Assembly: GCF_021390675.1 (NCBI RefSeq)
Contig: NZ_JAJEJV010000004.1
Coordinates: 2,976,001 to 3,040,000 of the forward strand
Origin: Dyella sp. 2HG41-7
GTDB taxonomy: Bacteria; Pseudomonadota; Gammaproteobacteria; Xanthomonadales; Rhodanobacteraceae
Length of the DNA: 64,000 nt
Direction: 5' to 3'
Part shown: in pieces, positions 3,932-60,241 of the stretch
Layout of the letters: the number at the start of each line of letters is the position of its first letter
Numbering within the stretch: the first letter of the stretch is position 1
Notes under the pieces: model-generated
Told to the model about the DNA's origin: nothing
Seen by the model: the letters and a program-made list of their open reading frames with translations, nothing else
Database searches by the model: none
Made by a program: the position numbers and the translations under genes

Positions 3932-5347
<1,416 letters not shown>

Positions 5348-5390
5348 TTCGACAGACCGGACAAACCAGGGAGCATTTGTCATGATGCTT

Positions 5391-5659
5391 GGGATGCTCT
5401 GATTCATTCCACATAGGTGGCATGATGTCCAGAAGGCCCGCAGGGTGTGTTGCGCGGCGCAGGGCAGACTGGCCGTCTGCTCAAGCCGCGCGACGCAGCA
5501 TGCGGGCCTTCTGGACATCACCCTCCGGGCCGATTCTGTGTGTCCGCATGCCTTCGGTCCATCGACTCGAAAGACGGCCAGTCTGTCTTCGCCGATGGCC
5601 CTGTGGCCTGCAGACACACAGTACCGGTGACACCTGTGTGGAATGAATCAGAGCATCCC
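5391..5659. repeat. Dispersed palindromic element, copy 1 (269 bp, MITE-like)
   Basis: It fills most of the gap between purB and the TSUP gene. It is bounded by a perfect 23-bp terminal inverted repeat (5391-5413 and 5637-5659, outer end GGGATGCTCTGA), flanked by TT on both sides. Inside are two hairpin modules. Module 1 has perfect 20-bp arms at 5423-5442 and 5501-5520 around a smaller GCAGAC/GTCTGC hairpin. Module 2 has imperfect arms (CTGTGTGTC at 5536-5544 with GACACACAG at 5613-5621, CCATCG at 5559-5564 with CGATGG at 5593-5598) around AGAC/GTCT. A second copy lies at 58736-59003 in reverse orientation. No credible ORF is inside. It resembles a non-autonomous element or composite REP; the family is not identified. 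Confidence 0.85.
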
Positions 5660-5680
5660 TTGTCGGCCTGAACGAGAGTC

Positions 5681-6433
5681 ATGGCGCCCTTTTCCGAATT
5701 CCTGATATTCGCCGGTATCGGTGCGCTCGCCCAACTTGTGGACGGCGCGCTGGGCATGGCCTATGGCGTCACGTCGGCGGGGATGCTGCTGGGCATCGGC
5801 ATGCCGCCGGCACTCGCGAGCGCCAGTGTGCATTACGCGGAAACTTTTACGTGCGGCGCGTCGGGCCTCAGCCACTGGTGGGCCGGCAATGTGCAACGCA
5901 ATTTGTTTTGGGCGCTGGTGATTCCAGGCGTGATCGGCGCGGTGATCGGTGCGACTGCGCTCGCGCATATGCCGCCGATATGGATACGGTATTTCCTTAC
6001 GCCGTATCTGCTCGCCATGGGCTTGTTTCTGGTCTTTCGCACTACGCGCCGCAAAGATCGCCGCACCGATGTGCCGCACGGCACGCGCGTATTGGGCTTT
6101 ATCGCCGGCTTGCTCGATGCTGCCGGCGGCGGCGGGTGGAGCGCACTCACAGTGACGACGATGGTTGCGCGCGGACAAGAGCCGCGCACCGTCATTGGCA
6201 GCGTGCATTTGGCCAAATGCATCGTGAGCCTCGCTGCGAGCATCACGTTTTTGCTCAGCATTGGTCAAAGCAAGTTGCATGTGGTGCTGGGCCTGATTTT
6301 CGGCGGTGTAGCCGCAGCGCCGTTCGGCGCATGGCTGGTGCGCCGATTGCCGCCGCGCGTGTCCACGCTCATGGCCGGCCTGACCGTGCTGGCCCTAGGC
6401 ATCTACAACTTCTATCACCTGATGCATCGGTGA
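5681..6433 (+). CDS. TSUP family (TauE/SafE) membrane permease
   Basis: 250 residues with about eight hydrophobic segments. It shows the two-fold TauE/SafE pattern: an N-terminal half with AQLVDGALGMAYGVTSAGML and a second half with GFIAGLLDAAGGGGWSALT. Members move sulfite, sulfonates or related organic anions across the inner membrane, but the substrate cannot be told from sequence. The start at 5681 follows a GAGAG site eight bases upstream. The element end at 5659 lies 21 bases before the start, so the repeat probably supplies part of the 5' untranslated region. The downstream gene is convergent, 16 bases away. Confidence 0.85.
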   Translation: MAPFSEFLIFAGIGALAQLVDGALGMAYGVTSAGMLLGIGMPPALASASVHYAETFTCGASGLSHWWAGNVQRNLFWALVIPGVIGAVIGATALAHMPPIWIRYFLTPYLLAMGLFLVFRTTRRKDRRTDVPHGTRVLGFIAGLLDAAGGGGWSALTVTTMVARGQEPRTVIGSVHLAKCIVSLAASITFLLSIGQSKLHVVLGLIFGGVAAAPFGAWLVRRLPPRVSTLMAGLTVLALGIYNFYHLMHR

Positions 6434-58733: not shown

Positions 58734-58735
58734 TA

Positions 58736-59003
58736 GGGATGCTCTGACAATGCTACGCAGGCGTCACCGGCTTTGTTCGTTCGCAGGCCACAGGACCATC
58801 GGCGAAGGCAGACTGGCTGTCTGTCGAGACGATGGGCCGAAGGCACGCGGACGGACAAAGCCGGCCCGTAGGGTGATGTCCAGAAGGCTCGCAGGCTGCG
58901 CCGCGCGGCTTGAACAGACGGCCAGTCTGCCCTGCGCCGCGCAACACACCCTGCGAGCCTTCTGGACATCATGCCGCCTACGTAGCATTGATCAGAGCAT
59001 CCC
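58736..59003. repeat. Dispersed palindromic element, copy 2 (268 bp, inverted)
   Basis: Reverse-complement version of the element at 5391-5659. The outer ends GGGATGCTCTGA are flanked by TA on both sides, consistent with a 2-bp target duplication. Inner parts of the terminal repeats differ from copy 1 but still match each other (one base apart). Module 1 arms are at 58874-58893 and 58952-58971. Module 2 arms include CTTTGT (58771-58776) with ACAAAG (58855-58860). It fills the whole fabF-pabB gap, touching both genes. Confidence 0.87.
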
Positions 59004-60241
59004 TAGATGCGACGGAATGCGATCGTACCGTTGGTACCGCCAAAGCCGAACGAGTTGGAGATGGCGATATCGATCTTCGCCTCGCGCGCCGTGTTCGCCA
59101 CGAAATCAAGATCGCAGCCTTCACCCGGTTCATCGAGATTGATCGTCGGCGGCAACACCTGATCGCGCATCGCGAGGATGGTGAAGATGGCTTCCACGCC
59201 GCCCGCCGCACCCAGCAGGTGTCCGGTGGTGGATTTGGTGGAGCTCATCGCCAACTTGTACGCGTGATCGCCGAACACGCGCTTGGCTGCCAGCACTTCG
59301 CCGAGATCGCCCAACGGTGTGGAGGTGCCGTGCGCGTTGATGTATTGCACGTCGGACGGATTGATCTGACCGTCGCGCAGCGCCGAGTCCATGCAGCGTC
59401 CCGCACCTTCGCCGCCCTCGCTGGGCGCGGTGATGTGGAAAGCGTCGCCGCTCATGCCGAAGCCGACCAGCTCGGCGTAGATTTTCGCGCCGCGCGCTTT
59501 GGCGTGTTCGTATTCTTCGAGCACCAGCACGCCGGCGCCGTCGGACAACACGAAACCGTCGCGATCCTTATCCCAGGGACGGCTCGCCTTGGTGGGTTCG
59601 TCGTTGCGCGTGGACATCGCCTTGGCCGAGCAGAAGCCCGCCATCGCCGTGCCCGTGGTCGCGAATTCGGAACCGCCGGCCACCATCACGTCCGCGTCGC
59701 CGTACTGAATCATGCGCATCGCCAGACCGATGTTGTGCGTGGCGGTGGTGCATGCAGTGACGCACGCGATGTTCGGACCTTTGAGACCGAACATGATCGA
59801 CAGATTGCCCGACACCATGTTGATGATCGAGCTGGGCACGAAGAACGGCGACACGCGTCGCGGACCTTTTTCGTGCAAATCGATGGAGGTGTCTTCGATG
59901 GTATTGAGGCCACCGATGCCGGCGCCCACCGCCACGCCAATGCGCGGCGCGTTGGCTTCCGTAATTTCCAATCCGGAATCGCGCAGGGCTTGCGTACCCG
60001 CGGCGATGCCGTAGTGGATGAACGGGTCCATTTTTTTGACATCTTTCGGGGCGATCCACTGCACCGGATCGAAATCGCGCACCTGACCGGCGATGCGCGT
60101 GGCATACGTCGATGCATCGAAGTGCGTAACGTTGCCAATACCACTGACGCCCTTGAGGATGTTGTTCCAGGCGGTGGCGATGTCGTTGCCGACCGGCGAG
60201 ATGATGCCCATGCCGGTCACTACCACACGTCGTTTGCTCAT
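59003..60241 (-). CDS. fabF: Beta-ketoacyl-ACP synthase II
   Basis: 412 residues, elongating condensing enzyme. Catalytic Cys164 ([14 protein letters not shown]), a His in [11 protein letters not shown] and another in [35 protein letters not shown] is the normal start. It follows acpP after 198 bases with a terminator-like hairpin between. The TAG stop shares its TA with the boundary of repeat copy 2. Confidence 0.97.

Follow-up and report, generated by a model that had tools for sequence, protein, structure and literature searches.

How do the two arms of a stem remain matched while their letters change? This question is raised by a palindromic element that occurs twice, in inverted orientation, in a window of 64,000 nucleotides from Dyella sp. 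2HG41-7 (the whole stretch of DNA analysed). The initial annotation noted that, where the two copies differ in their stems, both arms change together, and suggested that either the folded form is functional or the arms are corrected against each other. Reading of the sequence at both places confirmed the two copies (Table 1), which were 86% alike over 257 nt. The paired stem differences were found as described, namely AGGCCCGCA/TGCGGGCCT in copy 1 versus AGGCTCGCA/TGCGAGCCT in copy 2 for the first module, and CTGTGT/ACACAG versus CTTTGT/ACAAAG for the second. Within each copy the inner parts of the terminal repeats matched; the exceptions were a single T·G pair per copy and, in copy 2, a gap of one base. 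The proposed layout of two modules was correct for the modules themselves (P2 and P4 below) but incomplete, since a third small hairpin (P3) was present and the terminal repeats (P1, 29 pairs) closed all of them into one junction. P3 was long-looped in the 289-nt class of copies.

Table 1. Positions of the two element copies and their parts in the window
Feature	Position	Strand	Remark
Copy 1, whole element, 269 nt	5391..5659	+	between purB (3932-5347, +) and open frame 5681-6433 (+)
Copy 1, P1 5' arm (terminal inverted repeat)	5391..5419	+	element positions 1-29, pairing with 241-269
Copy 1, P1 3' arm	5631..5659	+	from the fold
Copy 1, P2 hairpin (module 1 of the initial annotation)	5423..5520	+	
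Copy 1, P2 core (apical domain with T·G pairs)	5444..5499	+	basis of model R1
Copy 1, P3 small hairpin, CCC(TCC)GGG	5521..5529	+	from the fold
Copy 1, P4 hairpin (module 2 of the initial annotation)	5530..5627	+	
Copy 1, TT flank	5389..5390	.	repeated at 5660-5661; probable target duplication
Copy 2, whole element, 268 nt	58736..59003	-	between fabF and pabB
Copy 2, P1 5' arm	58975..59003	-	first G completes the fabF TAG stop codon
Copy 2, P1 3' arm	58736..58763	-	one base shorter
Copy 2, P2 hairpin	58874..58971	-	
Copy 2, P3 hairpin	58865..58873	-	
Copy 2, P4 hairpin	58767..58864	-	
Copy 2, TA target	59004..59005	.	repeated at 58734-58735; filled versus empty site

The folding energies were far lower than those of shuffled sequences, with z of -17.1 for copy 1 folded as RNA and -15.0 for copy 2 folded as DNA, and none of 200 shuffles was as good in either case. 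The 12-base core of the terminal inverted repeat, with up to two mismatches, was no rarer than chance in the window (6 matches versus a mean of 4.6 expected); the significance rests on the whole element and not on this core. It was also observed that copy 2 lies within the stop codon of fabF (59003-59005); the target supplies TA and the element supplies G, and the stop is thereby kept.

The two copies were members of a dispersed repeat family. About 19 near-full copies plus fragments were found in the own genome (4.26 Mb, 99.99% complete), and family matches were obtained in 28 of 61 genomes (the own genome and 60 relatives) and in 14 of 40 genera, all 28 genomes belonging to one family of bacteria. 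An exact 19-base stretch of P2 occurred in named records (57 stretches) mostly from Dyella, and also from Rhodanobacter and Frateuria. This stretch was seen as well in metagenome bins labelled Eremiobacteraeota (L067) and Fermentibacteria (L092), the former label being probably a naming error. A total of 115 distinct full-length copies was extracted, mostly 265-291 bp long and G+C-rich. Removal of 2 outliers left 113 copies, on which the pairwise double/single counts are based, and removal of 6 more with at least 95% identity left 107, which were used for the counts of pairs and of private pair types. In the G012 assembly, eight contigs (C1, C2, C7, C14, C15, C27, C31 and C43) have an element match that starts in their first five bases; this assembly was probably broken by the repeats, and copies there were probably undercounted.

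Through weak matches in the own genome, a further family (B, the first being called A) was found, which had other terminal repeats, the same plan and a mainly shared P2 core. A covariance model of the P2 core (R1) was made from 32 sequences, 26 of family A and 6 of family B or B-like. Under strict filters, with at most 42 candidates scored per genome, the model had matches in at least 16 of the 121 genomes examined from the order; the 16 include the own genome and members of four other families. In a class-wide sample of 321 genomes, with at most 16 candidates scored in each, at least 3 had matches, namely the own genome and two at E of about 1e-4. With the same strictness, at least 41 matches were found in the own genome (G000), at least 32 in G112 and none in G020. 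Reading and folding of loci gave about a dozen variants in which the letters of P1 differed and the folding plan was kept; the minimum-energy fold of L301 was without the plan, and L316 and L344 were cut by contig ends.

Several smaller structures were noticed among the copies. L088, L085, L093, L137 and L045 contained one or two insertions of ~43 nt (CCTCGCTCCTCAAA..GTACATCCATGTAC..CCGCGTG) at three different places in P4 loops; a pyrimidine-rich stretch resembling them, with a GTAC hairpin, was present at the P4 tip of family B. The insertion may be a smaller nested mobile unit. On the right flank of L177, a bare terminal-repeat hairpin adjoined the full copy across a TA, and G012:C3:386896-387010 was a small derivative, a copy with its interior deleted.

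Inspection of the flanks and of empty sites indicated insertion at TA. The fabF end of six relatives without the element read CATCTAGTG in three (L234, L241 and L242), CATCTAAGTG in L239 and another ending in two. The copy 1 site, too, lacks the element in some relatives, and L217, as read by eye, is a degraded copy at that site. The flank consensus of the family was cTA-element-TAg, TA being the commonest bases at all four flank positions, and of 113 copies, 38 had TA on each side, and in 75 it was missing from one side or both. A recent burst of 17 copies in one relative (G019) had CTAG on both sides in 16 copies; the 17th favours TA as the duplicated unit.

The orientation to neighbouring genes was less uniform. 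With crude gene calls, family A copies between co-directional neighbours were 36 sense and 17 antisense (93 sites called, p = 0.013), and a second count gave 45 sense versus 21 antisense of 135 sites, with 26 uncalled (p = 0.004). The bias was absent in the G019 burst (1 sense versus 4 antisense, 9 of 17 uncalled) and in family B (3 sense versus 2 antisense), and in the own genome two methods disagreed (9 to 1 versus 5 to 4). The sense bias was therefore treated as a lead only.

Across the family, covariation was very strong. By the initial annotation, the structural idea would fail with only two copies or without covariation of further copies in the stems; it was not refuted in this way, since the many copies found covaried at most stem pairs. 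In 47 copies, 75 of 105 stem pairs were changed on both sides, compared with 32.7 (sd 3.0) after shuffling and 19-31 for slid partners; 0 of 500 shuffles reached the observed value on any of five measures, with the reservation that related sequences can exceed shuffles and that copy 1 supplied the structure. The 47 copies were every second of 95 usual-length copies plus copy 1, minus L171, in which P4 is inverted; L014, also inverted, was kept. For P1, 27 of the 29 pairs were changed on both sides, and 97.9% of the cells over these pairs were paired.

If the fold of one strand were selected, G·T would be expected to be tolerated above A·C on that strand. The stems of the 107 family A copies differed in this respect. 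Outer P1 was 98.2% Watson-Crick with 7 G·T and 20 A·C cells, an A·C excess (p = 0.019) that is unexplained; inner P1 was 91.8% Watson-Crick with 39 G·T and 31 A·C, and basal P4 had 24 G·T and 28 A·C. Wobble bias was thus absent from P1 and P4. P2 had it throughout, with 50 G·T versus 11 A·C in the basal part and 297 versus 4 in the core, or 75 to 4 when the commonest pair of each position was left out. The G·T pairs of P2 were kept in one orientation, indicating that the fold of one strand is probably selected. In families B, C and D (15, 5 and 6 distinct copies), the G·T/A·C counts were 6/4, 1/0 and 4/4 in P1, and 70/1, 13/0 and 38/4 in P2, in agreement with family A. Their counts in P3/P4 scattered (3/2, 0/6 and 12/2, the cells not being independent), and not all of them agreed with family A for P4.

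Of 107 copies, two had the entire P4 module inverted, L171 and L014 (own genome, C4:3457142-3457410). Inversion of P2 was found in 0 of 107 copies; an inverted P2 may be harder to detect, though the same search found the inverted P4.

Comparison at four orthologous insertions (flanks 77-91% identical) gave 23 double Watson-Crick changes in P1 and P4 versus 8 single ones, 5 of the A·C type and 3 of the G·T type. The ortholog pair L015/L145 showed a one-base deletion in both P1 arms. At the same four sites P2 had 10 double and 11 single changes, and 9 of the single ones were between G·T and Watson-Crick. A fifth pair (L027/L060) was excluded from the count, L027 being a degraded outlier copy, and no orthologous sites between G002 and G012 were found among the extracted copies. 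In the pair L103/L169, the P2 tip of L169 resembled other G009 copies, suggesting that exchange between copies may also occur.

The double changes accumulated with divergence. Among 113 copies, whose pairwise comparisons are not independent, the double/single counts for P1 and P4 were 17/26 at 2-5% divergence, 309/227 at 5-10%, 8140/3029 at 10-15%, 17589/5424 at 15-20% and 32434/8596 above 20%. Basal P2 rose too, from 4/8 at 2-5% to 5583/3801 above 20%, so the course from single to double changes alone cannot separate P2 from P1 and P4. Pair types private to one copy were mostly unmatched (35 versus 18 double in P1, 29 versus 4 in P4), as is expected of recent changes and no proof of later correction. 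In the G019 burst, whose copies were 1 to 5 changes away from their consensus, all 33 paired-site changes were single and fell on 16 positions, and 15 of its 17 copies kept a C·A mismatch in P1. Transposition itself hence does not seem to re-match the arms, and fold-back synthesis at transposition was disfavoured on the same observations. It seems that mismatches are re-matched by the time copies have diverged by a few per cent. Given 2-8% of non-Watson-Crick cells in P1 and P4, and assuming neutrality, the rate of re-matching would exceed that of point mutation per site by an estimated factor of some tens.

The two possibilities of the initial annotation thus appeared to apply to different stems: P2 fits a strand-specific fold, and P1 and P4 of family A fit re-matching of arms in DNA. 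We propose, with a probability of roughly 0.6, that the element is a MITE-like, TA-inserting element in which a DNA-level process re-matches the P1 and P4 arms, and P2 is selected as a single-strand fold. The element would insert at TA, often within CTAG, and duplicate the target. A point mutation in a P1 or P4 arm would then produce a mismatch, and the arms would later be matched again in place, most simply by polymerase template switching, in which one arm is copied from the other and the whole hairpin might occasionally be inverted. The folded single-stranded P2 (RNA or ssDNA), above all its apical core, would probably be recognised by a mobiliser or user, and mobility would depend on a factor whose source may be lost, of a new kind or outside the transposase families searched. 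That template switching can homogenise arms and invert spacers is established (PMC8604942 and PMC8794818, in the parts available); in the available part of PMC8794818, compensatory changes with loop inversion are extremely rare in the authors' own data. Against template switching, only two inversions were found here, and a lack of wobble bias together with a similar time course would also be expected if a cruciform, in which both strands fold, were under selection.

Such selection, with a DNA cruciform or the hairpins of both strands as its target (e.g. as a site of a structure-specific nuclease or recombinase) and with loss of mismatched copies and persistence of compensated ones, would account for the lack of wobble preference in P1 and P4 of family A and for double changes being preceded by single ones. 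It does not predict the inversion of P4 or the matching deletion in both arms at one site, and the copies that spread in G019 were mostly those with the P1 mismatch; we consider it unlikely. It is similarly improbable that the whole element is a structured RNA whose compensatory changes were fixed by selection on the RNA fold. The very strong covariation, the fold shared by variants of different letters, the T·G pairs retained in P2, the P3/P4 counts of family D and the modest sense bias, based on crude gene calls, are all in line with an RNA. However, selection on RNA tolerates G·U, and P1 and P4 of family A had no G·U excess over A·C; the sense bias failed in the G019 burst and family B and was conflicting in the own genome; and no Rfam threshold was reached by the element. 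In the window, tRNA alone scored above the gathering score, and six loci of six variants gave sub-gathering matches alone (microRNA, antisense and sRNA families), the best being mir-431 with E of 6e-5.

An ordinary MITE of a DDE transposase, with matching arms from different sources and terminal repeats kept symmetric for the transposase, would have the terminal inverted repeats, TA duplication and small size of TA-target MITEs (as described in the available part of PMC2229807). This origin is very unlikely, since the co-changes occurred at orthologous sites without new insertion, the letters of P1 vary between variants, and the own genome gave 0 matches both to DDE_3 (PF13358; IS630-type, the source of RUP-type MITEs), although a lost source is possible, and to DDE_Tnp_1 (PF01609; IS4/IS5-type, the single IS5-type Pfam model used). 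The Y1 transposase (PF01797) was present in 4 of 6 genomes searched and gave no match in the own genome and in G112, both rich in P2-core matches. In G003, a relative with many P2-core matches, contig C1 had 18 Y1 matches, 16 of them at 122-129 bits, apparently a separate IS200-like burst. Matches to the element ends in the own genome lay at element copies or remnants in 38 of 40 cases, and by reading, one of the remaining two resembled coding sequence and the other a remnant. No element match was obtained in plasmid and phage collections, and viral contigs had no exact match to a strict P2 pattern. The size of the copies leaves no room for an internal transposase gene; small open frames overlap the copies. 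The full-length relative carrying a transposase that the initial annotation had envisaged was not found in these searches.

As an extension of the preferred reading, the elements might form a class of gammaproteobacterial mobile DNA that is recognised by shape and not by sequence: the mobiliser would read the folded P2 of one strand (RNA or ssDNA), and P1 and P4 could consist of almost any pairing letters, kept paired by template switching. This idea is tentative and rather doubtful. If it were true, terminal sequences could diversify freely without loss of mobility, unlike those of ordinary DNA transposons. Pairing of the P2 loop (TGGYY) with the P4 tip (RRCCA) as a kissing loop was suggestive by eye across variants and was rejected: the pattern matched in 87 of 107 family A copies, without association (41/20 versus 13/11, Fisher p = 0.32).

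Covariation is commonly read as proof that an RNA structure is functional. In this element, two of the three long stems covaried very strongly without wobble intermediates, and the third, in the same molecule, carried an RNA-like signature. DNA-level arm matching and strand-specific conservation of a fold can hence be separable within one element. The family may serve as a natural control that separates template-switch covariation from structural selection, and as a caution for RNA discovery based on covariation. It is also a natural record of the evolution of paired stems, in which the fold plan is constant and the letters change.

Several known systems serve for comparison. The attC sites of integrons have R' and R'' boxes and are recombined by IntI. 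REP/RAYT elements are intergenic palindromes with strand-specific hairpins, a likeness to the present element; in contrast to them, it has terminal repeats and a TA target, and the own genome and G112 were without the Y1 domain. The ERIC sequence of enterobacteria is about 127 bp long.

TA-target MITEs are a known background (PMC2229807, PMC10969869 and PMC1590033, each as far as available). Terminal inverted repeats and many dispersed copies were found here as in such MITEs, and so was a TA target with duplication (the empty sites of copy 2 and the G019 burst), though copy 1 has TT. ERIC, NEMIS/Correia and RUP resemble the element in being short repeats with terminal inverted repeats, TA termini, target duplication and a stable fold (PMC2229807 and PMC10969869, in the available parts). 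According to the available text of PMC2229807, TA-target MITEs are under 200 bp and mostly A+T-rich, with long stem-loops. Judged by these descriptions, the present element is set apart from ERIC, NEMIS and RUP by its length of mostly 265-291 bp, its G+C-richness, its closed multi-arm junction, and its variants with different P1 letters and a common P2 core. The MITE descriptions in the available parts of PMC2229807 and PMC10969869 do not compare G·T pairs with A·C pairs. The CIR repeats of Caulobacter likewise have two long hairpin arms per repeat; their arms are joined by a linker and no terminal inverted repeat is listed for them in the accessible part of PMC2229807, whereas here P1 closes the junction. 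The element family appeared under no title in the literature searched, which covered few subscription journals, and it is a real variant of the TA-target bacterial MITE, unnamed as far as searched. The matching of its arms resembles quasipalindrome correction by template switching, with arm homogenisation and spacer inversion (PMC8604942 and PMC8794818, in the parts available). As a mutational process such correction is already known; in the present case its substrate would be a mobile family with more than 100 copies that can be compared by divergence.
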